Made by a program: the position numbers and the translations under genes
Part shown: positions 20,448 to 56,441 of the stretch, piece by piece
Position numbering within the stretch: position 1 is the first letter of the stretch
Layout: every line of letters begins with the position of its first letter
Notes under the pieces: model-generated
Seen by the model: only the letters and a program-made list of their open reading frames with translations
Databases searched by the model: none
What the model was told of the DNA's origin: nothing
Assembly: GCA_019635485.1 (NCBI GenBank)
Contig: JAHBZL010000020.1
Location: forward strand, 1-64,000
Origin: Piscinibacter sp.
Lineage (GTDB): Bacteria; Pseudomonadota; Gammaproteobacteria; Burkholderiales; Burkholderiaceae_C
Length of the DNA: 64,000 nucleotides
Direction: 5' to 3'

Positions 20448-22880
<2,433 letters not shown>

Positions 22881-22911
22881 GGCATTCGCCCGCCAGAATT
22901 CGGGGCCGCCG

Positions 22912-22930: not shown

Positions 22931-22935
22931 GTGGC

Positions 22936-22941: not shown

Positions 22942-22953
22942 GCAAGGCTCAAT

Positions 22954-23029: not shown

Positions 23030-23040
23030 AATCGTGAAGA

Positions 23041-23066
23041 AAGGGAAGCTCAGGCTTCCCTTTTTT
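23041..23066 (+). terminator. Rho-independent terminator between tRNA-Gly and tRNA-Cys
   Basis: AAGGGAAGC (23041-23049) pairs perfectly with GCTTCCCTT (23054-23062) around a 4-base loop, with the T-run TTTTTT. It would end the tRNA-Gly transcript 10 bases before tRNA-Cys, so tRNA-Cys depends on readthrough or on a promoter inside this terminator. Confidence 0.8.
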
Positions 23067-23076
23067 CTCAGCCCAC

Positions 23077-23150
23077 GGCGCGGTAGCAAAGCGGTTATGC
23101 ACCGGATTGCAAATCCGTTCAGCCCGGTTCGACTCCGGGCCGCGCCTCCA
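23077..23150 (+). tRNA. tRNA-Cys, anticodon GCA
   Basis: Acceptor stem GGCGCGG/CCGCGCC, D-arm (TAGCAAAGCGGTTATGCA), anticodon loop TTGCAAA with GCA at 23109-23111, T-arm (GCCCGGTTCGACTCCGGGC), discriminator T and encoded CCA give a 74-base tRNA-Cys. Confidence 0.98.
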
Positions 23151-39321: not shown

Positions 39322-40341
39322 ATGTTCTTCGGTCTGTCCAGCGCGCTCAAGCGCAGCGTCCACCGCCCGGCGGTGGTGATCGAGCCCGTCCGCGAGGCGG
39401 GCGGCTGGATGGCGCGCGACGAAGCCATCATGGGCACGGCGATCCGGGTCGAATTGTGGTGCGACGACCGCGAGGCCGGCGAAGCCGCGATCGAGGCGGT
39501 GATGCAGGAGATGCACCGCATCGACTGGGCGATGAGCCCGCACAAGCCGCAGTCCGAACTGTCGCGCATCAACCGCGAGGCGGGCAGCGCGCCGGTGCGG
39601 CTGAGCGAAGAAATGTTCGGCCTGCTGCAGCAGGCGATCGCCTTCTCGCGCCTGTCCGACGGTGCGTTCGACATCAGCTACGCGAGTGTCGGCCAGTACT
39701 ACGACTACCGGGCCGGTGTCGGCCCGGACGATCGGCAGCGCGAGCAGGGTCGGGCGCTGATCGGGTGGCAGCACCTGCAACTGGACCCGCGCACGCGCAG
39801 CCTGCGCTTCGGGCGCCCCGGCATGCGCATCGACCTGGGCGGCTTCGCGAAGGGCCATGCGGTGGACAACGGCGTCGCGATCCTGCGCCGGCACGGCATC
39901 CGCCACGCGATGGTCAGCGCCGGCGGCGACAGCCATGTGCTGGGCGACCGCCGAGGCCGGCCCTGGACGGTGGCGATCCGCGACCCGCGCGACGCCAACG
40001 GCATCGTCGCCGTGCTGCCGCTGGAGGACGTCGCGATCTCCACCTCCGGCGACTACGAGCGCTACTTCGAGCGTGATGGCGTGCGCCATCACCACCTCAT
40101 CGATCCGCGCAGCGGCCGCAGTCCCGACCGCGTGCGCAGCGTGACCATCCTGGCGGCCGACGGCCTGACCAGCGAGGGTCTGTCCAAGAGCGTTTTCGTG
40201 CTGGGTGTCGAGGACGGACTGCGACTGGTCGAGTCGCAGCCCGGCGTCGACGCGGTCGTGATCGACGCGGCCGGCACCCTGCACTACTCGTCCGGCCTGC
40301 TGGGGGCGCACGCGCGCCCCAGCGCGGATGCCCGGCAGTGA
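39322..40341 (+). CDS. apbE: FAD:protein FMN transferase (ApbE)
   Basis: ApbE covalently attaches FMN to Thr/Ser of target redox proteins (motif Dxx[ST]GA[ST]). The 339 residues show the family features: EAIMGTAIRVELW, DFSAPHK-like MSPHKPQSELSRINREAG, GAFDISYAS, MRIDLGGFAKGHAVD, VSAGGDSHVLG, ISTSGDYERYF and HHHLIDPRSG. I chose the ATG at 39322 because GGGAGCGAGGG precedes it. It has no signal peptide or lipobox, whereas most ApbE proteins are exported, so it may act in the cytoplasm or be exported by another route. It heads the 17-kb operon, 26 bp before the haem lipoprotein. Confidence 0.93.
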   Translation: MFFGLSSALKRSVHRPAVVIEPVREAGGWMARDEAIMGTAIRVELWCDDREAGEAAIEAVMQEMHRIDWAMSPHKPQSELSRINREAGSAPVRLSEEMFGLLQQAIAFSRLSDGAFDISYASVGQYYDYRAGVGPDDRQREQGRALIGWQHLQLDPRTRSLRFGRPGMRIDLGGFAKGHAVDNGVAILRRHGIRHAMVSAGGDSHVLGDRRGRPWTVAIRDPRDANGIVAVLPLEDVAISTSGDYERYFERDGVRHHHLIDPRSGRSPDRVRSVTILAADGLTSEGLSKSVFVLGVEDGLRLVESQPGVDAVVIDAAGTLHYSSGLLGAHARPSADARQ

Positions 40342-40367
40342 ACGGTACGGAATCAGAGGAGGCTCAC

Positions 40368-43352
40368 ATGAAGAACCAGTCAACGTGGCGACAACGGACC
40401 CCGGCACTGGCTTTGATCGCGCTCGCCGCGATCATCGCCGGCTGCTCGGGCAGCGGCAGCGGCGAGACGACCGTGACGGTCAACGGCGATGTCCCGATCG
40501 CCTACGTCAAGCGCTCGACCGCGATGAGCATCAACCCGACCGACGGCACGCCCAGCGCGCCGGGCGGCGACCTGATGATCCGCGAGAAGTCCTCGCCCAG
40601 CGCGCCCGAGCACAACATCACCTCGGCGATCACGCAGGGCACCGGTGACGCGTCCGACCCCGAGGTCTCGTACGACGGCAAGAAGATCGTCTTCGCGCTG
40701 CGCTGCCCGACCAGCAACACCTCGACGATCGAGGGGGCGCCGGCCTGCACCGGGCGCTGGAACGTCTGGGAATACGACATGACGACCGGCGGTTTCGCCG
40801 GCGGCACGCTGCGGCGCATCACGTCCTCCACGCAGTTCGACGACGTCGACCCGGCCTACATGCCGTCCGGCCGCGGCTTCGTGTTCGCGTCCAACCGCCA
40901 GACCACCACCCGCACGGTGCAGGGCGGCCGCACGATCCTCGCGCTCGACGAATACGAGCGCGAGCAGGTGCTGAACCTGCACACGATGGACAAGGACGGC
41001 GGCGCGATCACGCAGATCTCCGCCAACCAGAGCCATGACCGCAATCCGGTGGTGCGGCCGAACGGCGACATCATGTTCTCGCGCTGGGAACACGTCGGCA
41101 TGCGCAACCGCTTCGCGATCTTCCGCGTCAAGCCCGACGGCACCGACATGTTCGTGCTGTACGGCGCGCACAGCCCGGGCAACAGCTTCCTGCACCCGCG
41201 CGACATGGACCCGAAGGGCAAGTACGCCGGCTTCGTGGCCTCCGACCTGATGGCGCTGTCGCGCACGCAGGAAGGCGGCTCGCTGATGTTCATCGACGCG
41301 GAGAACTACTCCGAGCAGAACACCCCGGCCAACAAGTCGGTGGCCGCCGTCGGCGGGCAGACCGAGGTCACGCCCGAGCCGCTGAACCAGAACCGCGGCC
41401 TGTCGACCTTCGGCCGCGTGACCACGCCGTATCCGCTGTGGGACGGCACCGACCGCGTGCTGGTCGCCTACCGGCCCTGCCAGGTGACGCGCGACGGCGT
41501 CGTGATCCCCTGCGCGAACCTGACCGACGAGGAGCGTGCGCGCCTGGCTGACGGCACCCGCACTCGCGCGGAGGTCGCCGCCGACACCGTGCAGGACAAC
41601 GCACCGGCCGCCTACGGCATCTACATGTACAACCCGGTCAACCAGACCTGGCTGAACGTGGCCGCGCCGCCCCCGGGCTTCATGTTCACCGACCCGATCG
41701 CGCTGCAGGCGCGTGACGAGCCGAACGCGACCGAGCCGACCAGCGTCGACAGCATGCTGGCCGCGCAGAACCTCGGCCTGCTCGAGGTGCGCAGCATCTA
41801 CGACACCGACGGCCTGCAGCGCATGGGCGAGCCGGTCATCGCCGCCGCCGACCTGCCGGCCGGCTGCACGACCGCGATCGCGCAGCGTTCGCCGACCGAG
41901 GCGGCCGACACGCGCACCTCCGTCGCGGACCTGGTGCGCATGAAGGACCCGGCCGACGCGGCCTACCACTGCTCGCCGGCGCGCTTCGTCCGGGCGATCC
42001 GTGCCGTCGCGCCGCAGGCCGGCATGAGCGGCATGCGCGAGGCGATCGGCGAGACCGACTTCGAGCCGCAGCAGATCCTCGGCTACGCGCCGATCGAGCC
42101 GGACGGTTCGTTCCGCCTGAAGGTGCCGGCCGACACGCCGCTCGCGCTCGTCATCACCGACGACCAGGGCCGCGGCCTGCAGACCCACCTGAACTGGATC
42201 CAGGTCCGCCCGGGCGAGCGTCGCACCTGCGACGGCTGCCACAGCCCGCGCCGTGGCGCGTCGCTGAACTCCGGCGCGACGGTGAATGCCCTGCCGGCGG
42301 CGCTCAACCCGGCCCTGGCCAGCCTGCACCAGTCCGGCCAGACCATGGCGAACCTGCGCACGAACCAGGACCAGACCCTGATGAACCTGAAGCCGGACAT
42401 GGTCTTCAGCGACGTCTGGGCCAACACGGCCATGGCCGGCGTGACGGCTCGCGCGTCGATCGAGCTGAAGTACACCGGCAATACGAATCCGGCGGACGAC
42501 CTGCAGACGCTGGTGCCGACCAACGGCCTGATCAACTATCCGATGCACATCCAGCCGATCTGGTCGCGTGCCCGCGGTACGGGCGGCAGCCAGACCTGCA
42601 CGAACTGCCACACCGACACGGCCGCACTGAGCCTGCTCGGCACCACTTCGGGCACCGGGCGCATCGTGTCGTACGAGGAACTCGTGCTGGGCGACCCGCT
42701 GATCGACGACGCCACCGGCCTGCCGGTGACGCGCCTGGAGGAGGGCGTCCCGATGATCGTGCGCGGCGCCGCGCTGGTCGAGACCGATGCCGGCAACGCG
42801 CAGGGCCTGGCCCGCGCCAGCCGGCTGATCGAGATCCTGTTCGGCCAGACGCTGAAGTCAGGTGCCGAGGCGCGCGAGACGCACCCGACGCCGACCACGC
42901 TGGACCACTCGACGCTGCTGAACAAGGCCGAGAAGCGCCTCGTCACGGAGTGGGTGGACCTGGGTGGCCAGTACTACAACGACCTCACTGCCGGCGGCAG
43001 CGGCGTGCAGCTCAACACGCTGAGCGAACAGGCCTTCCTGACCAACGTCTACCCGATCCTGCAGGCGGATTGCGCGGGTTGCCACCAGCCGGTCGGCAGC
43101 TCGGGTGCGGCGCAGACGGCCAGTTCGTTCCAGCGCAACCGCTTCGTGCTGACCGGCAGCGAGAAGGGTGACTTCAACGTCACGCTGTCGATGATCTCCG
43201 ACACGTGCAACGCCCCGTCGAACGCGCTGCTGATGCGGCCGTCGACGGCGCCGCACCCGGCCGGCGCCACGGGTCAGACGACCCCGCCGCTGCCGGCCGG
43301 CAGCGCGAACTACAACACCATCCAGAGCTGGATCGCCAGCGGCTGCCCATGA
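40368..43352 (+). CDS. Tri-haem-motif lipoprotein related to hydrazine synthase alpha subunit
   Basis: This 994-residue exported lipoprotein has lipobox Cys26 (AAIIAGC). Residues about 40-400 look like a TolB/PD40 beta-propeller (PEVSYDGKKIVFALR, PAYMPSGRGFVFASNRQ, NPVVRPNGDIMFSRWE). The middle part (about 560-640: PDGSFRLKVPADTPLALVITDDQG and VRPGERRTCDGCH) matches the HZS-alpha middle domain as I recall it. Three c-type haem motifs are present: CDGCH (621-625), CTNCH (744-748) and CAGCH (902-906). The AGAGGAGG ribosome site precedes the ATG. Hydrazine synthase itself is anammox-specific and its partners are absent, so the shared fold does not give the reaction. The stop overlaps the next gene (ATGA). 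Confidence 0.85.
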   Translation: MKNQSTWRQRTPALALIALAAIIAGCSGSGSGETTVTVNGDVPIAYVKRSTAMSINPTDGTPSAPGGDLMIREKSSPSAPEHNITSAITQGTGDASDPEVSYDGKKIVFALRCPTSNTSTIEGAPACTGRWNVWEYDMTTGGFAGGTLRRITSSTQFDDVDPAYMPSGRGFVFASNRQTTTRTVQGGRTILALDEYEREQVLNLHTMDKDGGAITQISANQSHDRNPVVRPNGDIMFSRWEHVGMRNRFAIFRVKPDGTDMFVLYGAHSPGNSFLHPRDMDPKGKYAGFVASDLMALSRTQEGGSLMFIDAENYSEQNTPANKSVAAVGGQTEVTPEPLNQNRGLSTFGRVTTPYPLWDGTDRVLVAYRPCQVTRDGVVIPCANLTDEERARLADGTRTRAEVAADTVQDNAPAAYGIYMYNPVNQTWLNVAAPPPGFMFTDPIALQARDEPNATEPTSVDSMLAAQNLGLLEVRSIYDTDGLQRMGEPVIAAADLPAGCTTAIAQRSPTEAADTRTSVADLVRMKDPADAAYHCSPARFVRAIRAVAPQAGMSGMREAIGETDFEPQQILGYAPIEPDGSFRLKVPADTPLALVITDDQGRGLQTHLNWIQVRPGERRTCDGCHSPRRGASLNSGATVNALPAALNPALASLHQSGQTMANLRTNQDQTLMNLKPDMVFSDVWANTAMAGVTARASIELKYTGNTNPADDLQTLVPTNGLINYPMHIQPIWSRARGTGGSQTCTNCHTDTAALSLLGTTSGTGRIVSYEELVLGDPLIDDATGLPVTRLEEGVPMIVRGAALVETDAGNAQGLARASRLIEILFGQTLKSGAEARETHPTPTTLDHSTLLNKAEKRLVTEWVDLGGQYYNDLTAGGSGVQLNTLSEQAFLTNVYPILQADCAGCHQPVGSSGAAQTASSFQRNRFVLTGSEKGDFNVTLSMISDTCNAPSNALLMRPSTAPHPAGATGQTTPPLPAGSANYNTIQSWIASGCP

Positions 43353-43972
43353 CCCTGTCCTCGCGTCTTCTTCGCGCGCGGCAAACCGCGGCGGCTTCGG
43401 CCGCCGCGGTTTTGCTCGTCGGCTGCGGTGGCGGCAGCCCGCTCGGGAACCCGCCGACGATCGAGAACCCGACCGGCACCACCGGCCAGAAGCTCTCGTT
43501 CGCGTACTTCCAGCGCTGCATCAACCCGATCCTGCTGGCCCAGCTGACGATCCACCAGAACGGCCAGACCTCGGTCAACACCTGCGCCAGCGCCGGCTGC
43601 CACGACAACAGCAGCGGCACCGGCGGGGCGCTGCGCGTGATCGGCGGCGCACCCGACGTGGACCTGAGCGGCGACCTGACGAGCCGCGCCGACGAGATCC
43701 GTGCGGAGCCGATCTACGTCAGCTTCTACTCGTCGCAGGGCTCGACCGTGATCGGCTCGCCTGACTCGAGCCGGCTGCTGAACAAGCCGCTGGTGCGCGG
43801 CACGCTGCACGGCGGCGGCCTGATCTTCGAGAGCCCCGACGACCCGAACGCGAAGCTGCTGGAGTACTGGATCACCCATCCGATGCCCGCCGGCCAGGAC
43901 GAGTTCGGGGCCTCGGCGTCCAACCTGTTCGAACCCGCGGACGTCCAGACCGGCGCATGCAAGACCCAATGA
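43349..43972 (+). CDS. Small haem-motif lipoprotein
   Basis: This 207-residue protein has a lipobox (VLLVGC, Cys about 25) and so is lipid-anchored outside the cytoplasm. It carries CASAGCH, a cysteine pair with four residues between (C-x4-CH) rather than the usual two, followed by DNSSGTGGALR; this resembles c-type cytochrome-like domains in planctomycete-type proteins. Its C-terminal half (PDSSRLLNKPLVRGTLHGGG, LEYWITHPMP) resembles the end of its upstream neighbour. It overlaps both neighbours by ATGA. Probably a partner of the tri-haem protein. No known function. Confidence 0.82.
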   Translation: MTLSSRLLRARQTAAASAAAVLLVGCGGGSPLGNPPTIENPTGTTGQKLSFAYFQRCINPILLAQLTIHQNGQTSVNTCASAGCHDNSSGTGGALRVIGGAPDVDLSGDLTSRADEIRAEPIYVSFYSSQGSTVIGSPDSSRLLNKPLVRGTLHGGGLIFESPDDPNAKLLEYWITHPMPAGQDEFGASASNLFEPADVQTGACKTQ

Positions 43973-44745
43973 ACCACCACCCGACCCGTGTGGTTCGTGG
44001 GCTGCTCGCGACCGGCGCGCTGGCCCTCGGCCTGTGCGCGGCCTGGCCCGCGCTCGCGGCCGACGAGGCCGCGCGCACCGAACGTGTCCAGATCACCGAC
44101 CCGTACATCGAGATGCGCACCGGGCCGGGGCGCGGCTACCCGATCCACCACGTCGCGGCCCGCGAGGAGTGGATCGTCATCGAACTGCGCTTCACCGACT
44201 GGTACAAGGTGCGCACCGAGAACGGCAAGGAGGGCTGGGTGCAGCGCCGCCAGCTCGAGACCACGCTGACCGAGGCCGGCGGCAAGAAGGCCTTCCGCGA
44301 CGTGCTGCTGGACGACTACCTCCAGCGCAAGGTCGAACTCGGCGCCGGCTGGGGCCGCTTCAAGTCCGAGCCGATGCTGAAGTTCTGGCTCGGCTACCGA
44401 CTGTCGGACACGCTCGGCGCCGAGCTCACGGTGGGCCAGGTGCAGGGCCTCTTCTCGGGCACCGACTTCTGGCACGTCAACCTGCAGTCCGAGCCCTGGT
44501 CCGACCAGCGCATCTCGCCGTTCTTCGCGGTGGGCTTCGGCAACTTCAAGAACATTCCGAACTCGAGCCTCGTCGACGCGACACCGACCGACGCGAAGCT
44601 CGCCAATGCGTCCCTCGGTGTGCGCTATTACCTCACCGAACGCTTCATGCTGCGTGCAGACTATTCGATCTACACCGCGTTCGTCGCCGACACGCGTTCG
44701 ATCGAGTACCGCGCGATCACGGCCGGACTGTCCTTCTTCTTCTAG
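43969..44745 (+). CDS. Exported SH3-domain/outer-membrane beta-barrel protein
   Basis: This 258-residue protein has a signal peptide (LLATGALALGLCAAWPALA, cleaved near residue 31), then a bacterial SH3-like domain (about 38-100: RVQITDPYIEMRTGPGRGYPIHHV, TDWYKVRTENGKEGWVQRRQLE), which often binds peptidoglycan. Residues about 125-258 show amphipathic strands and a C-terminal aromatic ending (ITAGLSFFF), typical of an 8-stranded outer-membrane barrel. It starts in an ATGA overlap with the haem lipoprotein. It could tether the envelope complex to both the wall and the outer membrane. No named family recognised beyond SH3. Confidence 0.8.
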   Translation: MNHHPTRVVRGLLATGALALGLCAAWPALAADEAARTERVQITDPYIEMRTGPGRGYPIHHVAAREEWIVIELRFTDWYKVRTENGKEGWVQRRQLETTLTEAGGKKAFRDVLLDDYLQRKVELGAGWGRFKSEPMLKFWLGYRLSDTLGAELTVGQVQGLFSGTDFWHVNLQSEPWSDQRISPFFAVGFGNFKNIPNSSLVDATPTDAKLANASLGVRYYLTERFMLRADYSIYTAFVADTRSIEYRAITAGLSFFF

Positions 44746-44755
44746 ACCCGCGACC

Positions 44756-45409
44756 ATGCGACAACAACAACATCTCGCCGCCTTGTTCGCCGCCGCCGCC
44801 ACCCTGCTGGCCGGCACCGCCTGGGCCCAGGGGCAACCGCAGCAGCCGGGCAACGAGCAGGTGATCCAGCCGGAGGTCGAGCGCCGCGAACTGCGCCTGC
44901 CGAAGTTCCCGTCCAAGGACTTCGAGGTCGGCCTGTATGCCGGCACCTACGGAACCGAGAACTTCGGCGCCAGTGGTGTCGCGGGCCTGCGCCTGGGCTA
45001 CCACATCACCGAGGACTTCTTCGTGCAGGGCGTGTTCGCGGCCACCAAGGTCAGCGACGAGGCGTTCCGGCAGATCTTCCCCGGCGGGGGCGTGTTCCCG
45101 CAGGAGAAGGAGAAGCTCACCTACTACAACCTGTCGGCCGGCTACAACGTGCTGCCCGGCGAGGTCTTCCTGGGCCGCAACCGCGCGTTCGCGTCGCAGG
45201 TCTACGTGATCGGCGGCGTCGGCAGCACCAAGTTCCTGGAGCAGAAGAAGCAGACCTTCAACCTCGGCTTCGGCCTGCGGGTGCTGTTCCACGACCGTTT
45301 CGCCTGGCAGGTCGACCTGCGCGACCACGTCTACTCGCTCGACCTGCTGGGCAAGCGCACCAGCACGCAGAACCTCGAGCTGACCACCGGCTTCTCCTAC
45401 TTCTTCTGA
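44756..45409 (+). CDS. Outer-membrane beta-barrel protein
   Basis: This 217-residue protein has a signal peptide (LAALFAAAATLLAGTAWAQ, cleaved near residue 24) and a string of amphipathic strands (DFEVGLYAGTYG, GLRLGYHITEDFFVQGVFA, LGFGLRVLFHDRFAWQVDLRDHVYSLDLL) ending in TTGFSYFF, a C-terminal aromatic signal for barrel insertion. It resembles the upstream protein's barrel half without the SH3 domain. It starts 10 bp after its neighbour and ends 16 bp before the thioredoxin gene. Likely an 8-stranded barrel; role unknown. Confidence 0.8.
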   Translation: MRQQQHLAALFAAAATLLAGTAWAQGQPQQPGNEQVIQPEVERRELRLPKFPSKDFEVGLYAGTYGTENFGASGVAGLRLGYHITEDFFVQGVFAATKVSDEAFRQIFPGGGVFPQEKEKLTYYNLSAGYNVLPGEVFLGRNRAFASQVYVIGGVGSTKFLEQKKQTFNLGFGLRVLFHDRFAWQVDLRDHVYSLDLLGKRTSTQNLELTTGFSYFF

Positions 45410-45425
45410 CCACCACGGGATCTCC

Positions 45426-45935
<510 letters not shown>

Positions 45936-45937
45936 GC

Positions 45938-46165
45938 GTGGCACGCCCCGCCGTCACCGGGCTGCTGGCCGCCTGCGCCGTGCTGGGCGGCTGCGCTGCG
46001 CCACAGCCGTGGGTCAAGCCCTACGAGCGCGAGCGCCTGGCCGACCCGATCATGAAGTTCTCGCGCAGCGCGCTGCCCGACAAGCACCGCGAGCACGTGT
46101 TCGTCGTGCGCGAGGGTTCGCGCGGCGCCACCGGCACGCAGGGAGGCGGCTGTGGCTGCAACTGA
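45938..46165 (+). CDS. DUF4266 small lipoprotein
   Basis: This 75-residue protein has lipobox GGC (AACAVLGGCA, Cys about 18) and the DUF4266 core PWVKPYERERLADPIMKF. It ends in the glycine-cysteine tail GGGCGCN, which gives two Cys near the C-terminus. I chose the GTG at 45938 because AAGGAG lies five bases upstream; a GTG at 45932 is also in frame but sits on that ribosome site. It overlaps the DUF3570 gene by 14 bp. DUF4266 and DUF3570 genes are usually found together (recalled); neither has a known function. Confidence 0.85.
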   Translation: MARPAVTGLLAACAVLGGCAAPQPWVKPYERERLADPIMKFSRSALPDKHREHVFVVREGSRGATGTQGGGCGCN

Positions 46166-47279: not shown

Positions 47280-47287
47280 GGCCCCTC

Positions 47288-47887: not shown

Positions 47888-49782
47888 TGCCGCAACGTTC
47901 CCGTCCGTCGACCCTCTGGTGCCGCGCGGCCGCCGCGGCCGCGCTGGCCTGCGCCTGCGCGTCCGGCGGCGCGGCCGAGCCGGTCAAGAAGCCCGGCCCG
48001 GTGCTGGCGCCGCATTACGGCGACACGCTGTTCCACTTCTTCCAGGACCGCTACTTCACCGCCATCACCACGCTGATGGCCTCGCAGCAGATCGGCCGCA
48101 TCGCGCCGCACGACGACGAGGCGGAGATCCTGCGCGGCGGCATGCTGCTGTCCTACGGGCTGCACCGCGAGGCCGGCGAGATCTTCGCCCAGCTGATCGA
48201 GCGCGGCGCCTCGCCGGCGGTGCAGGATCGGGCCTGGTTCTTCCTCGCCAAGATCCGCTACCAGCGCGGCCTGATCGACGAGGCCGAGGCTGCCATCGGC
48301 CGCATCGGCAAGAACCTGCCGCCGGCGCTCGAGGAAGAGCGCGTGCTGCTGCAGGCCAACCTGATGATGGCGCGCGGCGACTATGCCGGGGCGGCGGGCG
48401 TGCTGGGTGCGCTGGCCGGCGCCAGCAGCGCCAGCCTGTACGCACGCTTCAACCTCGGTGTGGCGCTGGTGCGCAGCGGCGACGCGGAGCAGGGCGCCAG
48501 GCTGCTCGACGAGGTCGGCCGCACGCCGGAGCTGCCGACCGAGGAACTGCGCAGCCTGCGCGACAAGGCCAACGTCGCGCTAGGCTACAGCGCGCTGCAG
48601 GACAAGAAGCCCGAGGCCGCGCGGGTTGCGCTCGAACGCGTGCGCCTGACGAGCCTGCACTCGAACAAGGCGCTGCTCGGCTTCGGCTGGGCGGCCGCCG
48701 AGATGAAGGAACCGCGCAAGGCGCTGGTGCCCTGGACCGAACTCGCGCAGCGTGACTTCAGCGACGCCGCCGTGCTCGAGGCCCGCATCGCGGTCCCGTA
48801 TGCGTACGCCGAGCTGGGTGCCTTCGGCCAGTCGCTGGCCCGCTACGAGGAGGCGATCGCCGCCTTCGACGAGGAGGGCCGCCACCTCGACGAATCGATC
48901 GCCGCGATCCGCGCCGGCAAGCTGCTCGACGGCCTGATCGAGCGCAACCCCGGCGACGAGATGGGCTGGTTCTGGAACATCCGCGAACTGCCCGAGATGC
49001 CGCACGCGAACCACCTGACGCAGGTGCTGGCCCAGCACGAGTTCCAGGAGGCGTTCAAGAACTTCCGCGACTTGCGTTTCCTCGCCAACAACCTGAAGGA
49101 CTGGCAGGACAACCTGGGCGCCTTCGACGACATGCTGGCGAACCGCCGTCAGGCCTACACGGAACGGCTGCCCAAGGTGCGCGAACGTTCCAGCGCGAAG
49201 GACATCGCCGCGCTCGCCCAGCGCCGCGACGCGGTGACCGCCGAGACGCAGCGCGCGGAGACCGAGGCCGACGGCGTGGCCTTCGCCGACGAGCGCGAGC
49301 AGGCGCTGATGGCGCGACTGAAGGAGGTCCAGGCCAACCTGCAGGCCCTCGGCGATGCCGCCGAGCCGGCGGCGCGCGAGCGGGCGCGCCTGGCCGCCGG
49401 CGCGCTGACCTGGCAGCTGGCGCAGGAATACCCGGCGCGGCTCTGGGAAGCGAAGAAGGGGCTGCAGGCGATCGACGCGGGCCTCGCAGACGCGCAGCGG
49501 CTCGACGCGGCGATCAGTCAGGCGGAGCGTGACGAGCCGGTCCGCTTCGACCGGTTTGCCGCCCGCATCAAGGATCTGGGGGGGCGCATCCAGGCCCTGG
49601 TGCCGCGGGTTGCGGCCCTCTCCAACGAACAGCAGGGGCAGGTGCAGGAACTCGCCGTCGCCGAACTCACGCGCCAGAAGGAACGCCTCGCGGTCTACGC
49701 CACGCAGGCCCGCTTCGCCGTGGCGCAGCTCTACGACCGCGCCACCGCGGCCAGGAAGGACGACCGTGCGCCGGCCCAGTGA
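47887..49782 (+). CDS. Exported TPR/coiled-coil protein
   Basis: This 631-residue protein has an N-terminal signal-like segment (LWCRAAAAAALACACASGGAA) and a helical body of tetratricopeptide-like repeats (for example AEILRGGMLLSYGLHREAGEIFAQLIERG, AWFFLAKIRYQRGLIDEAEAAIGRIG as separate units). From about residue 430 it is rich in Glu/Arg/Ala helices, likely coiled coil (AQRRDAVTAETQRAETEADG). It overlaps its neighbours at both ends. It resembles the TPR proteins found beside TolQR-like motors in gliding and related clusters. A periplasmic scaffold is likely; function not known. Confidence 0.82.
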   Translation: MPQRSRPSTLWCRAAAAAALACACASGGAAEPVKKPGPVLAPHYGDTLFHFFQDRYFTAITTLMASQQIGRIAPHDDEAEILRGGMLLSYGLHREAGEIFAQLIERGASPAVQDRAWFFLAKIRYQRGLIDEAEAAIGRIGKNLPPALEEERVLLQANLMMARGDYAGAAGVLGALAGASSASLYARFNLGVALVRSGDAEQGARLLDEVGRTPELPTEELRSLRDKANVALGYSALQDKKPEAARVALERVRLTSLHSNKALLGFGWAAAEMKEPRKALVPWTELAQRDFSDAAVLEARIAVPYAYAELGAFGQSLARYEEAIAAFDEEGRHLDESIAAIRAGKLLDGLIERNPGDEMGWFWNIRELPEMPHANHLTQVLAQHEFQEAFKNFRDLRFLANNLKDWQDNLGAFDDMLANRRQAYTERLPKVRERSSAKDIAALAQRRDAVTAETQRAETEADGVAFADEREQALMARLKEVQANLQALGDAAEPAARERARLAAGALTWQLAQEYPARLWEAKKGLQAIDAGLADAQRLDAAISQAERDEPVRFDRFAARIKDLGGRIQALVPRVAALSNEQQGQVQELAVAELTRQKERLAVYATQARFAVAQLYDRATAARKDDRAPAQ

Positions 49783-52594
49783 CCTCGCGCTGCGGCCGCT
49801 CGCGCTGGCGCTGCTGTCGCTCGGGCTGCTGTCCGCCTGCGGCAGCAAGAAGCTGGCGGTGCCGGACGACGAGCCGACGCTGAAGACGCTGGCCGGCCGC
49901 GAGGTCGAGGTGGCGGCCGACAGCGGCATCGAGGTCACGCCCGAGAAGTCGATCGCGGCCTACCGCAAGTTCCTCGAGGTGGCGCCGCAGGCGAAGCAGC
50001 GCTCGGAGGCGATGCGCCGCATCGGCGACCTCGAGATGGACATCGCCGACGACAAGCTGGCCGCGGGCCAGGCCGGGCCGAACGGCGCGGCCGACTACCG
50101 CGCGGCGATCGAGCGCTACCAGGAATACCTGAAGGCCTACCCGAACGACCCGAACAACGACCGCGTGCTGTACCAGCTGGCCCGCGCGCAGGAGCAGAAC
50201 GGCGAGCTCGAGGTGTCGCTGAAGACGCTCGACCGGCTGACCGCGAACTACCCGAAGACAGCCTATCGCGACGAGGCGCAGTTCCGCCGCGGAGAGCTGC
50301 TGTTCAGCACGCGCGAGTACGCCAAGGCCGAGGCGGCCTACGGCACCGTGCTCGCCGGCGGCACCGACACGCCGTTCCGCGAGCGGGCGCTGTACATGCA
50401 GGGCTGGGCGCAGTTCAAGCAGGCCCGGCTCGAGGAGGCGCTGCACTCCTTCTTCGGCGTGCTCGACGCCAAGGTGGCCGGCCGTGCCGGCGACGGCGGG
50501 CTGGACTCGCTGGAAGGCCTGAGCCGCGCCGATCGGGAGCTGGTCGAGGACACCTTCCGTGTCACCAGCCTGGCGCTGAACAGCCTGCAGGGCGCGGAGA
50601 GCATCCCGCCCTACATCACGGACGACAAGCGGCGCTCCTACGAATACCTGGTCTACGAGCAGCTCGGCGACCTGTACCTGAAGCAGGAGCGGGTCAAGGA
50701 CGCGGCCGACACCTGGAGCGCCTTCGCACGCCGCCAGCCGCTGCATGCGCAGGCGCCGCAGCTGCAGGCACGCGTGATCGACATCTACCAGCGCAACGGC
50801 TTCGCGAGCCTCGCGCTGGACGCGAAGAAGGACTACGTCTCCCGCTACGGCGCGGACTCGGAGTTCCGCCGCGCCAACCCGGCCGGCTGGGAGAAGGCGC
50901 AGCCGCTGGTCAAGACGCACCTGACCGAGCTGGCGCGCCACTACCACGCGAGCGCGCAGAAGAGCAAGGCGAGCAGCGACTACCAGGAGGCGGTGCGCTG
51001 GTACCGCGCCTACATCGCCTCGTTCCCGGACGATCCGGAGACGGCGCAGAACAACTTCCTGCTCGCCGAACTGCTGTACGAGGACAGCCGCTATCCCGAG
51101 GCGGCGGTCGAGTACGAGAAGGTCGCCTACCAGTACCCGAACCACGCCAAGGCGGCCGATGCCGGCTATGCCGCGCTGCTCGCCTACGCGGCGCAGGAGA
51201 AGCGCAGCCCGCCCGCCGAGGCGCCTGCGCTGCAGAAGGCCGGGGTCGAGAGTTCGCTGCGTTTCGCGCAGGCGTTTCCGTCCGACCCGCGCGCCGGCTC
51301 CGTGCTGACCAACGCGGCCGAGAAGCTGTTCGCGCTGCGCGACGGCGCGCGCGCCAGCGAGGTGGCGCAGAAGGTGCTCGCGCTGCAGCCGCCGGCCAAG
51401 CCGGAGCAGCGGCGGGTCGCCTGGACGGTGATCGCGCACACCGCGTTCGAAACGAACGACTACCTGAAGGCCGAGCAGGCCTACGGCGAGGTGATCGCGC
51501 TGACGCCGGAGAAGGATCCGGCCCGCGGCGACCTGGTCGAACGGCTCGCGGCCTCCGTCTACAAGCAGGGCGAGCAGGCGCGTGCGGCCGGCGACAGCAA
51601 GGCGGCCGTCGAGCACTTCTCGCGCGTCGCGGCCGTCGCGCCGGGGTCGAGCGTGCGCGCCAACGCGCAGTTCGACGCCGCCGCGGCGCAGATCGCGCTG
51701 AAGGACTGGGACGGCGCCGCCCGCACGCTGGAAGACTTCCGCCAGCGCTACCCGAACCATCCGCTGCAGGGCGAGGTGGGTGGCAAGCTGGCGGTGGCCT
51801 ACCTCGAACGCGAGCAGTGGGCCCAGGCCGCCGGCGAGTTCGACCGGCTGTCGGCGTCGAGCAAGGACCCGAAGGTCGCGCGCGACGCGCTCTGGCAGTC
51901 CGCCGAGCTGTACGAGAAGGGCAACGCGAAGCCGCTGGCGGCGAAGAGCTACGAGCGCTACGTGAAGCAGTACCCGCAGCCGCTCGAGCCGGCGATGGAG
52001 GCCCGGTCGCGCCTGCTGACGATCGCGAAGGCGGACGGCAACAAGGCCCGCGAGCTGGCGCTGACGAAGGAGATCTACGAGGCCGACCGCAGCGGCGGCG
52101 CGGCGCGCACGCCGCGCACGCGCACGCTCGGCGGGCTTGCCGCGCTGGCGCTGACCGAGCCGGCCTACGAGGCCTACCGCAAGGTGCCGCTGGTCGAGCC
52201 GCTGGCCCGGCAGCTGAAGCTCAAGAAGGCCAAGATGGAAGAGGTGCTGAAGGCCTACGGGGCCGCGACCGACTACGGCGTGGCCGAGGTCACCACCGCC
52301 GCCACCTACCGCACGGCCAACCTGTACCAGGACTTCGGCCAGGCGCTGCTGAACTCGCAGCGCCCGCGCAAGCTCTCCAAGGCCGAGCTGGAACAGTACA
52401 ACGTGCTGCTCGAGGAGCAGGCCTTCCCGTTCGAGGAGAAGGCGATCGAGCTGCACGAGACGAACGCGCGCCGCACCAGCGTCGGCATCTACGACGAGTG
52501 GGTCAAGAGCAGCTTCGCCGCGCTGGCCAAGCTGCGTCCGGTGCGTTACGGCAAGGCCGAGCGCAGCGAGGGGGTCGTCGATGCGATCCGCTGA
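49766..52594 (+). CDS. Large TPR lipoprotein
   Basis: This 942-residue lipoprotein has lipobox LLSAC (Cys about 25) and a body built almost entirely of TPR units over residues 60-830 (YRKFLEVAPQAKQRSEAMRRIG, YQEYLKAYPNDPNNDRVLYQLARA, FRQRYPNHPLQGEVGGKLAVAYLER as examples). The start is the GTG at 49766, five bases after AGGAAGGA, so it overlaps the previous gene by 17 bp. The C-terminal 120 residues are helical without obvious TPR. TPR proteins of this size occur beside AglRQS-type motors in Myxococcus (AglT/PglI-like); similarity here is by architecture and context only. Confidence 0.82.
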   Translation: MRRPSDLALRPLALALLSLGLLSACGSKKLAVPDDEPTLKTLAGREVEVAADSGIEVTPEKSIAAYRKFLEVAPQAKQRSEAMRRIGDLEMDIADDKLAAGQAGPNGAADYRAAIERYQEYLKAYPNDPNNDRVLYQLARAQEQNGELEVSLKTLDRLTANYPKTAYRDEAQFRRGELLFSTREYAKAEAAYGTVLAGGTDTPFRERALYMQGWAQFKQARLEEALHSFFGVLDAKVAGRAGDGGLDSLEGLSRADRELVEDTFRVTSLALNSLQGAESIPPYITDDKRRSYEYLVYEQLGDLYLKQERVKDAADTWSAFARRQPLHAQAPQLQARVIDIYQRNGFASLALDAKKDYVSRYGADSEFRRANPAGWEKAQPLVKTHLTELARHYHASAQKSKASSDYQEAVRWYRAYIASFPDDPETAQNNFLLAELLYEDSRYPEAAVEYEKVAYQYPNHAKAADAGYAALLAYAAQEKRSPPAEAPALQKAGVESSLRFAQAFPSDPRAGSVLTNAAEKLFALRDGARASEVAQKVLALQPPAKPEQRRVAWTVIAHTAFETNDYLKAEQAYGEVIALTPEKDPARGDLVERLAASVYKQGEQARAAGDSKAAVEHFSRVAAVAPGSSVRANAQFDAAAAQIALKDWDGAARTLEDFRQRYPNHPLQGEVGGKLAVAYLEREQWAQAAGEFDRLSASSKDPKVARDALWQSAELYEKGNAKPLAAKSYERYVKQYPQPLEPAMEARSRLLTIAKADGNKARELALTKEIYEADRSGGAARTPRTRTLGGLAALALTEPAYEAYRKVPLVEPLARQLKLKKAKMEEVLKAYGAATDYGVAEVTTAATYRTANLYQDFGQALLNSQRPRKLSKAELEQYNVLLEEQAFPFEEKAIELHETNARRTSVGIYDEWVKSSFAALAKLRPVRYGKAERSEGVVDAIR

Positions 52595-53303
52595 ACGGCT
52601 GCTCGCCGCCCTGCTCGCGAGCGCCGCGCTCGCCGGCTGCTCGACCCTGAGCAGCACGGTGCAGGCGGTCAAGGACAGCGTCGTCACGCCGGTGGCCAAC
52701 GCGATCGCGCCGGCCGCGCCGGCCTCGGCACCCGCCAAGACGGTGGCGGCTGCACCGGCGGACGTCGCGGCGAAGAAGCCGGAACCGGTCCGTCCGCCGG
52801 TCGACCCGGCTGCGCAGCGCGCCTTCGACAACGCCTTGCGCGCGCTGCGCGCCGGCCGCACCGACGACGCGGAACGGGGGTTCCGCGCGCTGACGCAATC
52901 GCATCCCGACCTCGGCGGCCCGCATGCCAACCTCGGCGTGCTGTACCGGCAGGCGGGCAAGCTGGACCAGTCGGTCGCCGCGCTCGAGAAGGCCGTGGCG
53001 GCGAGCCCGGACCAGCCGGTGTTCCAGAACCAGCTCGGCATCAGCTACCGGCTGGCGGGCCAGTTCGCGAAGGCGCGCGCGGCCTACGAACGCGCGATCG
53101 AGCTCGACCCGACCTATGCCTCGCCGGTGCTCAACCTGGGCATCCTGAACGATCTCTACCTCGGTGACAACGCGCGGGCGCTCGAGCTGTACGTCCGCTA
53201 TATCGCACTGTCAGGCGGCAAGGACGCGACGGTCGCCAAGTGGGCGACCGAACTGAAGAACCGCAAGCCCGAGAAACTGCTGACGAAGAAGGAGCAGCCA
53301 TGA
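52581..53303 (+). CDS. TPR lipoprotein, short
   Basis: This 240-residue lipoprotein (lipobox SAALAGC, Cys about 20) has an Ala/Pro-rich linker to about residue 75 followed by three to four TPR units (LRAGRTDDAERGFRALTQSHPDL, LGVLYRQAGKLDQSVAALEKAVA, LGISYRLAGQFAKARAAYERAIE). It overlaps the end of the large TPR lipoprotein by 14 bp and the next gene by ATGA. Its form resembles PilF/NlpI-like small TPR lipoproteins; a role as an assembly or connector factor is inference. Confidence 0.85.
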   Translation: MRSAERLLAALLASAALAGCSTLSSTVQAVKDSVVTPVANAIAPAAPASAPAKTVAAAPADVAAKKPEPVRPPVDPAAQRAFDNALRALRAGRTDDAERGFRALTQSHPDLGGPHANLGVLYRQAGKLDQSVAALEKAVAASPDQPVFQNQLGISYRLAGQFAKARAAYERAIELDPTYASPVLNLGILNDLYLGDNARALELYVRYIALSGGKDATVAKWATELKNRKPEKLLTKKEQP

Positions 53304-53605
53304 CGCGACGCCTTTTCGCCTGCCTGCCCGGCGCGCTGATCCTGGTGGCCGGTTCGGCCTTCGCGCAGGACCGCGCGGACATCGACCGCACGCAGATCAT
53401 CGGCAACCGCGAACTGCCCAAGGTGCTGTACATCGTGCCGTGGAAGAAGCCGCTGCCCGGCGACCTCGCCGGCCGCCCGGTGGCCAGCGTGCTCGACGAG
53501 GCGCTCGCGCCGGTCGATCGCGACGTCTTCCGGCGCCAGGTGCAGTACGACGCCAAGACCCAAGCCCAATCCAAGAGCGCCGCGCCGGCCGCCCCGGCAC
53601 GTTAG
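53300..53605 (+). CDS. Short exported protein of unknown function
   Basis: This 101-residue protein has a signal peptide (LFACLPGALILVAGSAFAQ, cleaved near residue 22). The mature segment (DRADIDRTQIIGNRELPKVLYIVPWKKPLPGD) is followed by a short helix (VASVLDEALAPVDRDVFRRQVQYDA) and an Ala/Pro tail. The IIGNRELPKVLYIVPWK segment is well ordered and looks conserved, but I do not recognise the family. It overlaps the preceding TPR gene (ATGA) and precedes the ExbB-like gene by 60 bp, the widest gap in this part of the operon. Confidence 0.78.
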   Translation: MTRRLFACLPGALILVAGSAFAQDRADIDRTQIIGNRELPKVLYIVPWKKPLPGDLAGRPVASVLDEALAPVDRDVFRRQVQYDAKTQAQSKSAAPAAPAR

Positions 53606-53665
53606 GAAGCCAGTCTTCCAGCGCCGCCCGCAAAACTCATCGCCTCGCCTTTCCAGGAGCCAGCC

Positions 53666-54319
53666 ATGTCCCTCATCGATTTCGCCGTCAAGTTCTTCCA
53701 GGACAGCGGCGTTGCCATCTACTTCTCCATCGCGATCATGGCCGTGGGCCTGTCGATCGCGATCGAGCGCTTCATCTTCCTGAACCGGGCGCGGGCGCAG
53801 AACCGCCAGCTGTGGGCGCAGGTGCTGCCGATGCTGCAGGGCGGGCGCTTCAAGGAGGTGCTGGGCCTGGCGCAGAAGTCCGACGCCGCGATCGGCAAGA
53901 TCGTCACGCACGGCCTGGAGCGCATGCAGAGCCCGGGCCGCCGCGAGGACATCGACGCGGCGATGGAGGAGGGCATGATGGAGATCGTGCCGCGCCTGGA
54001 GAAGCGCACGCACTACATCGCGACCTTCGCCAACGTCATCACGCTGGTCGGCCTGCTGGGCACCATCATCGGCCTGATCAAGGGCTTCACGGCGGTGGCG
54101 GCGGTCAATCCGGCGGAGAAGGCCGAGCTGCTCTCCGCCTCGATCTCGATCGCGATGAACAACACGGCGTTCGCGCTGTCGGTCGCGATCCCGTTCCTGC
54201 TGATCCACGCCTTCCTGCAGGCGCGCACCAGCGAGATCGTCGACGGGCTGGAAGCCGCCAAGATCAGCTTCCTGAACCTGGTGCAGCGCATCAAGGCCGA
54301 GACGGCCGCGACGAGGTAA
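53666..54319 (+). CDS. MotA/TolQ/ExbB-family proton channel protein
   Basis: This 217-residue inner-membrane protein forms the pentameric stator part of proton-motive-force motors. It has three membrane helices: about 17-38, 116-140 (FANVITLVGLLGTIIGLIKGF) and 162-186 (ISIAMNNTAFALSVAIPFLLIHAF). The threonine in LGTIIG and the TM3 threonine expected on the proton path are both present. AGGAG precedes the ATG. Next come two TolR/ExbD-like genes and an AgmX-like gene, so it should assemble with them rather than with the cell's main Tol or Ton system. Confidence 0.93.
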   Translation: MSLIDFAVKFFQDSGVAIYFSIAIMAVGLSIAIERFIFLNRARAQNRQLWAQVLPMLQGGRFKEVLGLAQKSDAAIGKIVTHGLERMQSPGRREDIDAAMEEGMMEIVPRLEKRTHYIATFANVITLVGLLGTIIGLIKGFTAVAAVNPAEKAELLSASISIAMNNTAFALSVAIPFLLIHAFLQARTSEIVDGLEAAKISFLNLVQRIKAETAATR

Positions 54320-54323
54320 GAAC

Positions 54324-54842
54324 ATGCCCGTGCGACGCCTCCGTAAACGCACGGCGGAGCTGGAGGTCACGGCGTTCATCAACGTGATCGTCGTGCTGGT
54401 GCCGTTCCTGCTTTCGACGGCCGTGTTCACGCGGCTGTCGGTGCTGGAACTGTCGCTGCCGGCGCAGTCCTCCGCGGTCGAGCAGCTGAAGGTCGACGAC
54501 CTGAAGCTCGAAATCGTGATCCGCCCCGACGCGCTGGAAGTCGGCGACCGCATCGGCGGCCTGATCCAGCGCATTCCCGCGACGAGCCCGACCGAGCACG
54601 ACCTCGCGGCGCTGTCGACGCTGATGCAGATGATCAAGGGCAAGTTCCCGGACACCACCACCGCGACGGTGCTGGCGCAGCCGGACACGCCCTACGAGAT
54701 GCTCGTGCAGGTGATGGACGCGGTGCGCGAGACGCTGCCGCCGCCGCGCGTGAAGGGTCAGCATGTGCCGGACGTGCCGCGCACCGTGCTGTTCCCCGAC
54801 ATCTCGATCGGCGACGCGCCGGTGAGCGTGGCCAGGAAGTGA
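54324..54842 (+). CDS. ExbD/TolR-family protein with Asp-to-Asn change in the membrane helix
   Basis: This 172-residue inner-membrane protein has one membrane helix near the N-terminus and a periplasmic ExbD/TolR domain. The helix ELEVTAFINVIVVLVPFLL aligns without gaps with the E. coli ExbD helix DINVTPFIDVMLVLLIIFM, but the essential proton-carrying Asp (Asp25 in ExbD) is Asn20 here. The periplasmic part (VDDLKLEIVIRPDALEVGDR, TPYEMLVQVMDAVRETLPPP) is otherwise normal. It follows the ExbB gene by 4 bp and precedes a second ExbD that keeps the Asp. It is probably the non-protonatable half of a heterodimer. Confidence 0.9.
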   Translation: MPVRRLRKRTAELEVTAFINVIVVLVPFLLSTAVFTRLSVLELSLPAQSSAVEQLKVDDLKLEIVIRPDALEVGDRIGGLIQRIPATSPTEHDLAALSTLMQMIKGKFPDTTTATVLAQPDTPYEMLVQVMDAVRETLPPPRVKGQHVPDVPRTVLFPDISIGDAPVSVARK

Positions 54843-54852
54843 GGGGCCCGCG

Positions 54853-55344
54853 ATGAAGCTGACCCCGATCCAGAAGCGCGCCGAGCGCAAGGCGCGCAAC
54901 CAGCACGGGCTGGACATGAACCTGGTGGCGCTGATCGACATCTTCACGATCCTGATCTTCTTCCTGATGTCCTCGACCGGCATCGAGGTGCTGTCGACCG
55001 CCCGGGCCGTCAAGCTGCCCGAATCGACCGCGCTGAAGGACCCGAAGGAGACGATCGTGATCACCGTCAGCGCGACGGAGATCGTCGTCGACGGCCGCAA
55101 GGTCGCGAACGTGGCCGACGCGATGGCCAGCACCGAGGACCTGATCGCGCCGCTGAAGGCCGAGCTGGACGTGCTGTCCAACCGCCAGACGATCCGCAAG
55201 GAGAACGAGGCGCAGGCCAAGCAGGTCACCATCATGGGTGACAAGGGCATCCCGTACACGTTGCTGCGCAAGGTCATGTACACCGCCGCGCGCGCCAACT
55301 ACAGCGACGTGGCGTTCGCGGTGACCAAGAAGGCCAACACATGA
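54853..55344 (+). CDS. ExbD/TolR-family protein with intact Asp
   Basis: This 163-residue partner has an N-terminal cytoplasmic basic tail (MKLTPIQKRAERKARNQHG), one membrane helix DMNLVALIDIFTILIFFLM with Asp29 at the proton-path position, and a periplasmic domain (ETIVITVSATEIVVDGRKV, IPYTLLRKVMYTAARANYSDVAFAV). It overlaps the AgmX-like gene by ATGA and lies 10 bp after the Asn-bearing paralogue. One ExbB with two different ExbDs recalls AglR with AglQ and AglS of the Myxococcus gliding motor. Confidence 0.93.
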   Translation: MKLTPIQKRAERKARNQHGLDMNLVALIDIFTILIFFLMSSTGIEVLSTARAVKLPESTALKDPKETIVITVSATEIVVDGRKVANVADAMASTEDLIAPLKAELDVLSNRQTIRKENEAQAKQVTIMGDKGIPYTLLRKVMYTAARANYSDVAFAVTKKANT

Positions 55345-56441
55345 GCGCCACGGCCGTCACCTTCCGCCCGGTGGTGCTGCCGTGGGCGCTCGTGCTGGAG
55401 GACGAGGCGCGTTTCAGGCGCATCCTGCGCGCGGTGCTGATCGTCTCGGCGCTGATCTGCCTGGTACTGCTGCTGCTGCCCCGGCCGGTGGAGAACCGCG
55501 CCGCGCCGGCCGAGCTGCCGCCGCGTCTGGCCAAGCTGGTGCTCGAGCGCCAGCCGACGCCGACGCCCAAGCCGCCGGCCGTGAAGGCCGAGACGCTGGC
55601 CAAGGCCGAGCCGGTGCCGAGCAAGCCGCAGCCCGCCCGGCCCGAGGCCAAGAAGCCCGAGCCCCCGAAGGCTTCCGCAGTGCCCGAGGCACGCAATCCG
55701 GTGCCGGGCAAGAAGCCGGGCGAGGCGCTCGAGGCCGCCAAGCGCAAGGCCGCGGGTGTCGGCCTGATGGCGATGAAGCAGGAACTGGCGCAGCTCGCGC
55801 TGGCGCCCACCGCGGTGCAGCTGAACCAGAACATCAAGCCGGGGCCGGGCATCGGCGCCGGGGTGGGGGTCGGCGTCGGCGCCGGCACCGACCCGGGCAT
55901 TCCGACGCGCGCGCTGATCACCTCCAACGCGACCAACGGCAGCGGCGGCATCAACACGGCCGGCTACAGCCGCAACACCGGCGGCGGCGGCCTGGCCGGC
56001 CGCGGCACGACGCTCGTCGAGGGCACGATCGGCGGCGGTGGCGGCGGCGGGCCGGGTGGCGGCCTGGGTGTCGGCGGGCGCGGCGACGGGGCCGGCAACG
56101 GCACCGGAGGCGGCAAGGGCGGCACGCTCACCAAGGGCGGCAGCGGCAAGGCCTCGCGCTCGCTGGAGGACATCAAGCTGGTCTTCGAGCGCAACAAGGG
56201 CGCGATCTACGCGATCTACAACCGGGCGCTGCGCGAGGATCCCTCGCTGCAGGGCAAGGTGGTGGTCAAGCTGACCATCGCCCCGGCCGGCCATGTGGTG
56301 GACGTGCGGGTCGAGTCCAGCGAACTGCACGCCAGCGAGCTCGAGCAGAAGCTGCTCGCGCGCATCCGCAGCTTCGACTTCGGCGCCAAGGACGTCGACC
56401 AGATGGTGGTGACCTGGCCGGTCGATTTCCTGCCGTCCTGA
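55341..56441 (+). CDS. AgmX/PglI C-terminal-domain (TonB-like) protein
   Basis: This 366-residue protein has one membrane helix near residues 30-48 (AVLIVSALICLVLLLLP), a Pro/Lys/Ala-rich periplasmic stretch (about 55-130), a glycine-rich region (about 165-265, including runs of five to seven Gly) and a C-terminal domain (about 275-366: RSLEDIKLVFERNKGAIYAIYNRALR, GKVVVKLTIAPAGHVVDVRVESSEL) of the AgmX/PglI/TonB type. It should transmit force from the ExbB/ExbD unit to envelope partners. It is the last gene of the run and starts in an ATGA overlap with the second ExbD. Gliding itself is not implied. Confidence 0.88.
   Translation: MSATAVTFRPVVLPWALVLEDEARFRRILRAVLIVSALICLVLLLLPRPVENRAAPAELPPRLAKLVLERQPTPTPKPPAVKAETLAKAEPVPSKPQPARPEAKKPEPPKASAVPEARNPVPGKKPGEALEAAKRKAAGVGLMAMKQELAQLALAPTAVQLNQNIKPGPGIGAGVGVGVGAGTDPGIPTRALITSNATNGSGGINTAGYSRNTGGGGLAGRGTTLVEGTIGGGGGGGPGGGLGVGGRGDGAGNGTGGGKGGTLTKGGSGKASRSLEDIKLVFERNKGAIYAIYNRALREDPSLQGKVVVKLTIAPAGHVVDVRVESSELHASELEQKLLARIRSFDFGAKDVDQMVVTWPVDFLPS

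Follow-up and report, generated by a model that had tools for sequence, protein, structure and literature searches.

The Agl/Glt core complex (aglR, Q, S, gltC, D, E, G) was described in 2011 as a set of unknown function (Luciano et al., PMC3169522). Its genes are clustered in non-Deltaproteobacteria and in Geobacter, where they are accompanied by an additional gene that is absent from the Myxococcales (PMC3169522), and AglRQS itself is a proton channel that moves the Glt and Nfs complexes (PMC3858216). A quite separate set, comprising ApbE, DUF3570, thioredoxin and DUF4266 and concerned with flavinylation, was described in 2021, with 316 clusters that lack DsbD; one DUF3570 from Chlorobium is flavinylated by its own ApbE (PMC8238504). 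The present study concerns a cluster of 17 genes in which relatives of these two sets are joined. It lies at 39322-56441 of a 64,000-nucleotide stretch of DNA from Piscinibacter sp. (contig JAHBZL010000020.1 of assembly GCA_019635485.1, positions 1 to 64,000), the whole of which is referred to here as the window. Its redox half consists of ApbE, a haem lipoprotein resembling hydrazine synthase alpha (the HZS-like protein), a lipoprotein with a CX4CH motif, two small barrels, a TlpA-like protein, DUF4266 and DUF3570. Its motor half consists of an exported protein that serves as a marker for the motor cassette (09unk), three TPR proteins, a short exported protein, ExbB, two ExbDs and a TonB-like protein of the AgmX/PglI type. 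Comparison across genomes lends good support to the view that both gene modules have been inherited together across the Gammaproteobacteria and are one evolutionary unit, and it suggests that the pair is probably one machine.

One line of evidence for this view is the co-occurrence of the two halves. Profiles for 09unk (47288..47887, plus strand, as are all 17 genes), built from 10 rows, and for the HZS-like protein (40368..43352), built from 17 rows, were used to search 369 genomes of the class and matched in 83 and 66 of them, respectively, with 52 of the 66 HZS-like matches being strong. A match to the HZS-like profile was called strong when its best piece reached at least 160 bits, and the threshold for counting 09unk was 148 bits, which 67 of the 83 genomes reached, weaker matches being left out; by these measures, 51 of the 52 genomes with a strong HZS-like match also have 09unk. 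With 09unk held to at least 190 bits, 48 of the 369 genomes have both genes, 4 the HZS-like gene only, 6 the 09unk gene only and 311 neither, and all 6 genomes with 09unk only have a short DUF3570. DUF3570 was found in 95 of the 369 genomes, in what we read as a full-length and a shorter type, the window's being the shorter. The redox-half order is kept at 18 of 20 loci with the shorter type, 17 of these 18 including an HZS-like gene, and at 9 of the 20 the redox genes are followed in the same orientation by the motor half, or by as many of its leading genes as the sequence covers. A second draw, of 359 genomes of the phylum, contained 09unk in 12, all within the Gammaproteobacteria, and an HZS-like match in 29, of which 9 were strong and the other 20 scored 18-67 bits; all nine genomes with a strong match, six of them new, hold 09unk at 190 bits or more. 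An original prediction, made from the window alone, had treated the halves as a single system unless they proved to lie almost always apart elsewhere; the neighbourhood survey found the reverse, with co-occurrence in 51/52 and 9/9 genomes and the halves mostly adjacent. The exception among the 52 (G183; G, L and C numbers are our labels for genomes, loci and contigs) has an HZS-like frame broken into two; the 20 kb examined at this locus (L154) contain no other gene of the cluster, and the genome gave no 09unk match. The G183 locus (C1:1998599-2000221) has the look of a joint loss of both halves.

The arrangement of the halves varies. In the 51 genomes with both, 26 pairs are collinear (3.3-7.5 kb), 10 are divergent and head-to-head (5.6-8.7 kb), 2 are on one strand in the opposite order, 09unk lying 17 and 23 kb upstream, and 13 are on different contigs; in a further genome, G680, the HZS-like and 09unk genes are 104 kb apart on one contig. 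Because the halves co-occur even when they are far apart or on different contigs, linkage alone does not explain their co-occurrence. The loci that we name individually are the best 80 of at least 359 stretches encoding 09unk, a choice that leans toward the window's own subtype, and their genes were labelled with profiles built from matches among those same loci. They come from Piscinibacter, Rhizobacter, Rubrivivax, Methylibium, Ideonella, Caldimonas, Aquabacterium, Steroidobacteraceae and other Gammaproteobacteria. Two or more collinear redox genes are present at 54 of these 80 loci, divergent redox genes at 11 and a single redox gene at 2, while 12 show none within the less than 6 kb of upstream sequence available and one (L121) shows none in more than 9 kb. 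Where at least 6 kb upstream of 09unk is available, 56 of 57 loci have a redox gene there (48 of them two or more), and where at least 9 kb is available, 50 of 51 do. Trees built over 40 loci from six motor genes and from four redox genes have 18 of 37 splits in common, whereas 500 shuffles of the labels gave 0.18 on average and never more than 2. Such congruence fits long co-inheritance of the two halves, without amounting to proof of contact between their products.

Family searches place all four members of the flavinylation set in the redox half: ApbE, resembling FAD:protein FMN transferases (39322..40341; PF02424, 267 bits); the thioredoxin-like protein, a thiol-disulfide oxidoreductase of the TlpA/ResA kind (45426..45935; PF08534 and PF00578); the DUF4266 lipoprotein (45932..46165; PF14086, 80.5 bits), with a C-terminal CxC that recurs in 49 of 50 length-filtered rows; and DUF3570 (46152..47279; PF12094, 135 bits). 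The model of DUF3570 is a barrel of 16 long strands (pLDDT 90.6), and the top matches in a fold search are outer-membrane barrels, consistent with its prediction as one. Residues 86-97, which cover the end of strand 3 and enter the loop after it, hold two motifs, SNAS and TTAS; counting strands from a periplasmic N-terminus would put this loop outside. A relaxed [S/T]xA[S/T] motif occupies the site in 73 of 78 DUF3570 relatives, and flavinylation of DUF3570 is plausible. The HZS-like protein, a putative lipoprotein that matches HZS_alpha (PF18582, 73.9 bits) and, over its propeller, PD40, carries three CxxCH motifs in the window, the first two conserved in relatives and the third in a subset. 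Across 67 rows, the first, as CxGCH, is present in all 67, at least two CxxCH in 66, and a lipobox-like start in 43. It aligns piecewise with hydrazine synthase alpha (5c2v_A) across the propeller, the domain of haem-alphaI type and the C-terminal region. The ligand of haem alphaI in hydrazine synthase is of the Tyr591 type (PMC12607021, PMC12758564), and no Tyr is found at His+1 to +8 after the first CxxCH in any of the 67 HZS-like rows. Matches to hydrazine synthase beta or gamma were absent from the 17 proteins, with the libraries' holding of such models unchecked and the rest of the genome unsearched. The small protein encoded next (43349..43972; no family match) had been put forward as a second haem-motif lipoprotein; it is indeed a lipoprotein, its motif being CX4CH and not CxxCH, and in its family CX4CH is found in 29 of 31 length-filtered rows and CxxCH in 2. 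The two small barrels are an exported protein that combines an SH3b domain with an outer-membrane beta-barrel domain (43969..44745; PF06347 and PF13505) and an outer-membrane beta-barrel of the OMP_myx_plus family (44756..45409; TIGR04565, 137 bits against a cut-off of 60).

In the motor half, 09unk has a signal and is modelled as a helix and a transthyretin/Ig-like sandwich (pLDDT 84.5). It is followed by an exported TPR protein that we call GltC-like (47887..49782) and a large TPR lipoprotein that we call GltD-like (49766..52594), names given by size, TPRs and place, and by a TPR lipoprotein (52581..53303) that matches the GltE model NF033758 at 58 bits, below its cut-off of 225. A short exported protein without a family match, kept in relatives, occupies the gltF position (53300..53605). 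The channel protein, of the ExbB/TolQ/MotA type and AglR-like (53666..54319; PF01618), precedes ExbD1 (54324..54842; PF02472), ExbD2 (54853..55344; PF02472) and a GltG-like protein with an AgmX/PglI C-terminal domain (55341..56441), which scores 65.5 bits with NF033768 (cut-off 40), 41 with the GltG equivalog model (cut-off 650) and weakly with PF03544, and has no FHA match. The two ExbDs differ at the site of the transmembrane Asp, which is Asp29 in ExbD2 and is replaced by Asn20 in ExbD1. The Asp of ExbD2 is retained in 67/67 rows from the window and L035-L134 and in 18/18 from L153 and the 17 motor-only loci considered below (85/85 in total). ExbD1 has Asn in 53 of 63 rows of the former set and in 18/18 of the latter, the relatives' frames being longest open reading frame calls with uncertain starts, among which wrong-frame rows are labelled ExbD1 in L060, L063, L088 and L119. 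The remaining 10 ExbD1 rows form one set of loci, with Asp in both ExbDs (L102, L103, L110, L111, L113, L121, L123, L124, L126 and L130). All ten of these loci have a TlpA-like gene immediately before 09unk. According to a review (PMC9389320), the Asp is predicted for AglQ as well as AglS in M. xanthus, and the choice between homo- and heterodimers is unsettled. The simplest reading of the pattern seen here would be a mixed ExbD1/ExbD2 axle with a single Asp.

Collectively, these comparisons make it highly probable that the two halves serve one process. The reading that we favour, at a probability of about 0.5, is that they encode a redox-specialized relative of the Agl/Glt core, in which a proton-driven trans-envelope motor serves to assemble, deliver or move a redox complex of the outer membrane. 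In such a machine, ExbB together with an ExbD1/ExbD2 axle would use proton flow, and the GltG-like protein and the TPR lipoproteins would carry force across the periplasm. The outer-membrane end would be a complex of DUF3570, the SH3b-barrel protein, the OMP_myx_plus barrel and the HZS-like haem lipoprotein, and it is this complex that the motor would assemble, deliver or move, while TlpA and the CxC lipoprotein DUF4266 would hand electrons to a flavin-bearing barrel loop and the haems. A more specific version, which we offer tentatively, is that a proton-driven motor with an asymmetric ExbD1(Asn)/ExbD2(Asp) axle acts mechanically on an electron conduit in the outer membrane, for which a flavin-bearing barrel and the hydrazine-synthase-like haem lipoprotein would be the components; proton flow at the inner membrane would then drive the placement or gating of redox chemistry at the surface.

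Several observations weigh against a redox-coupled machine of this kind, one being that the motor occurs alone. From weaker 09unk matches, 18 stand-alone candidate loci (L135-L152) were picked among twenty further stretches, the other two being L153 (the motor of G422, whose HZS-like gene is on another contig) and L154 (G183). At 17 of the 18, eight or nine of the nine motor genes are present in the same order (all nine at 12 loci, eight at 5), and HZS-like, barrel and DUF3570 genes are lacking from all 17. L140 and L152 each have a TlpA-like gene. The eighteenth, L141 (G432:C1:2388600-2408500), places 09unk between ApbE, upstream, and a TPR gene, downstream, with no further motor genes detected; the flanks of ten inspected stand-alone loci hold mostly housekeeping-like genes, as judged by eye. 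A strong HZS-like match elsewhere in the genome was found in 6 of these 18 genomes and in the other 12 there was none. Redox coupling is therefore not a general property of the motor, which has no redox half beside it at 17 of the 18 chosen loci. Since the stand-alone loci fall on more than one branch of the tree, the redox link would have been gained or lost more than once or have followed a duplication. These comparisons show the motor to be a module, with the redox half as its partner in one widespread subtype. The flavin chemistry raises further objections: the strict [S/T]GA[S/T] motif is missing from 67 of 79 DUF3570 sequences, the window's included, and present anywhere in the other 12; no DsbD match was found among the 17 proteins by family searches; and, start sites being uncertain, ApbE has no hydrophobic N-terminus in the window or in 36 of 52 relatives, with one present in 13 and borderline in 3. 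ApbE without such an N-terminus belongs nearly always to Burkholderiales-type loci and ApbE with one mostly to other Gammaproteobacteria, and the former speaks against a simple periplasmic version of flavinylation. Moreover, the placement of the halves on separate contigs (13/51) or 104 kb apart (G680) means that a single transcript is not required, some rows of both profiles come from genomes among the 369, raising detection there, and a Fisher test on the two-by-two counts given above ignores shared ancestry.

These observations bear directly on the alternatives. The motor cassettes without adjoining redox genes at 17 of the 18 chosen loci, the free geometry (collinear, divergent or distant) and the resemblance of the flavin/thiol part to sets described, in the available text, without mention of a motor (PMC8238504) would all be expected if the two sets were kept together merely for the same condition and made two separate complexes. 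We nevertheless regard shared regulation of this sort as unlikely: a strong HZS-like match without 09unk was found in only 1 of 52 genomes (G183, with its broken frame), the trees of the two halves have splits in common, and the barrels of the redox half, one of them of the OMP_myx_plus family, would fit as the motor's outer-membrane end. The presence of ExbB and ExbD, together with a protein that matches TonB_C weakly, could suggest a motor that energizes TonB-like import of a metal, haem or other compound reduced or oxidized at the surface by the redox half, and a VIT1 iron transporter is present in 25 DUF3570 clusters (PMC8238504). Yet searches with Pfam and NCBIfam found no TonB-dependent receptor among the 17 proteins, and the barrels are of the OMP_b-brl type or, in one case, of 16 long strands. 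The three TPR proteins and 09unk, moreover, have no known counterpart in Ton systems, and this explanation appears doubtful indeed. Finally, the core genes are of a kind common to gliding machinery and one barrel belongs to the OMP_myx_plus family, as would suit a Glt-type machine for surface motility or adhesion in which the redox proteins are accessory or maturation parts. Candidate counterparts of the gliding genes of Group A (gltA, B, F, H, I, J, K) are that barrel and the short exported protein at the gltF place. The GltJ model, however, matched only across the shared C-terminal domain, and models for GltH, GltI and GltK had no match among the 17 proteins, whether the library holds such models being unchecked; motility or adhesion is to our minds the least probable of these explanations, and a quite improbable one.

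The layout of the cluster is in keeping with what the original prediction had said of it. The 17 open reading frames are contiguous, on the plus strand and tightly packed, and family searches of the 17 proteins agree with the families that had been assigned to them. Gaps had been described as mostly below 20 bp, with many overlaps: the 16 junctions span -17 to +60 bp, 9 of the 16 overlap with the starts chosen, and the only gaps above 20 bp are those of 26 bp between the ApbE and HZS-like genes and of 60 bp, the largest, between the genes for the short exported protein and ExbB. The 17-gene set cannot be put down to chance, its order being repeated at dozens of loci. There are 2 terminator-like matches, against a mean of 6.7 in shuffles, neither of which falls within the gaps at 47279-47288 and 53605-53666, and the single promoter-like match (9/12 bases) sits within the ExbB frame. 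Reading of N-termini by eye suggests that 12 products are exported, DUF3570 being the least clear, that ExbB, both ExbDs and the AgmX-like protein are membrane-bound, and that ApbE, which lacks a hydrophobic signal sequence, is not exported. The neighbours were likewise judged by eye, from their translations and not from family searches: upstream, on the minus strand, lies a PHA-synthase-like gene, and 67 bp downstream a gene resembling class II glutamine amidotransferases. Far upstream of the cluster, the window has three tRNA genes (Leu, Gly and Cys) at 16925-23150, with 48 bp between those for Gly and Cys.

Many of the loci outside the Burkholderiales carry further genes, K1, K2 and K3, divergent to the HZS-like gene, which were found in 18, 17 and 12 of 32 inspected loci, respectively (for example L101:3252-8655, L105, L107, L129 and the flanks of L036-L050); in several divergent loci they occupy the space between the halves. 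K1 (about 850 aa) has two CxxCH motifs in 18/18 and a LamG-like domain in both of the 2 scanned, and K2 (about 409 aa) has one CxxCH in 17/17, with one of the 2 scanned matching DUF1585 weakly, short of the cut-off. K3, about 540 aa when complete, has a Tat-like start by eye and no Pfam match in the 2 scanned. Searches of the window's genome with K1 and K3 gave no match, and the Burkholderiales loci inspected for K1-K3 reach only 1-2 kb upstream. At the 3' ends of L101, L105, L107 and L129, the AgmX-like gene is followed by K5, which has by eye a cyclic-nucleotide-binding-like N-terminus.

The conserved redox partner provides a concrete lead on the task of the Agl/Glt core in one large subtype, and makes that task testable by deletion and localization in culturable Burkholderiales, carriers of the cluster including Piscinibacter aquaticus KACC 15278 (L058), Rivibacter subsaxonicus DSM 19570 (L069) and Caldimonas caldifontis BCRC 80649 (L083). 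It also gives a setting to DUF3570 barrels and to HZS-alpha-like cytochromes outside anammox bacteria, and the Asn/Asp split between the ExbDs bears on the open question of AglQ/AglS homo- versus heterodimers (PMC9389320). Among described systems, the HZS-like protein resembles hydrazine synthase alpha (5c2v), in pieces, in its propeller, its haem-alphaI-type domain and its C-terminal region, and differs from it in having no Tyr ligand and, often, a lipobox-like start. The Nfs/Agl spore-coat machine of Myxococcus xanthus uses the Agl motor with Glt-like proteins in transport unrelated to motility; there, however, a sugar polymer is transported, and the text available mentions no redox proteins (PMC3858216).

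Close likenesses exist also to the two sets with which we began, and both resemblances drawn by the original prediction hold. The first half of the cluster, which it likened to an extracytoplasmic electron-transfer set, corresponds in four genes to the flavinylation clusters (PMC8238504): all four lie in one cluster, and DUF3570 retains [S/T]xA[S/T]. In contrast to those clusters, DUF3570 is here of the shorter type, with a motif that is mostly SNAS or SSAS, there is no DsbD match, and the HZS-like protein, two more barrels and a motor are added; ExbB, ExbD, gliding and hydrazine do not occur in the main text of that paper as available. The second half, likened to the AglRQS/Glt parts, matches in composition the core complex of PMC3169522, with one ExbB-type and two ExbD-type proteins, exported TPR proteins and an AgmX/PglI TonB-like protein, the genes for which sit together in Gammaproteobacteria along with at least one gene beyond the core; the GltC and GltD counterparts are assigned by size, TPRs, export and order only. 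Unlike that core, the window's motor has a redox half joined to it (thioredoxin, cytochrome, redox, heme and flavin are words absent from the available main text of PMC3169522), its GltG-like protein has no FHA match, and its ExbD1 usually has Asn, whereas AglQ and AglS are both predicted to have Asp (PMC9389320). The further claim that no described system has this composition fails for each half, since these were described in PMC3169522 and PMC8238504, and stands for their union, which was not found among the matches listed in searches of the open-licence literature, where DUF3570 and DUF4266 each occur in one paper. What appears to be new is the pairing, in one widely inherited cluster, of two gene sets that had previously been described separately.

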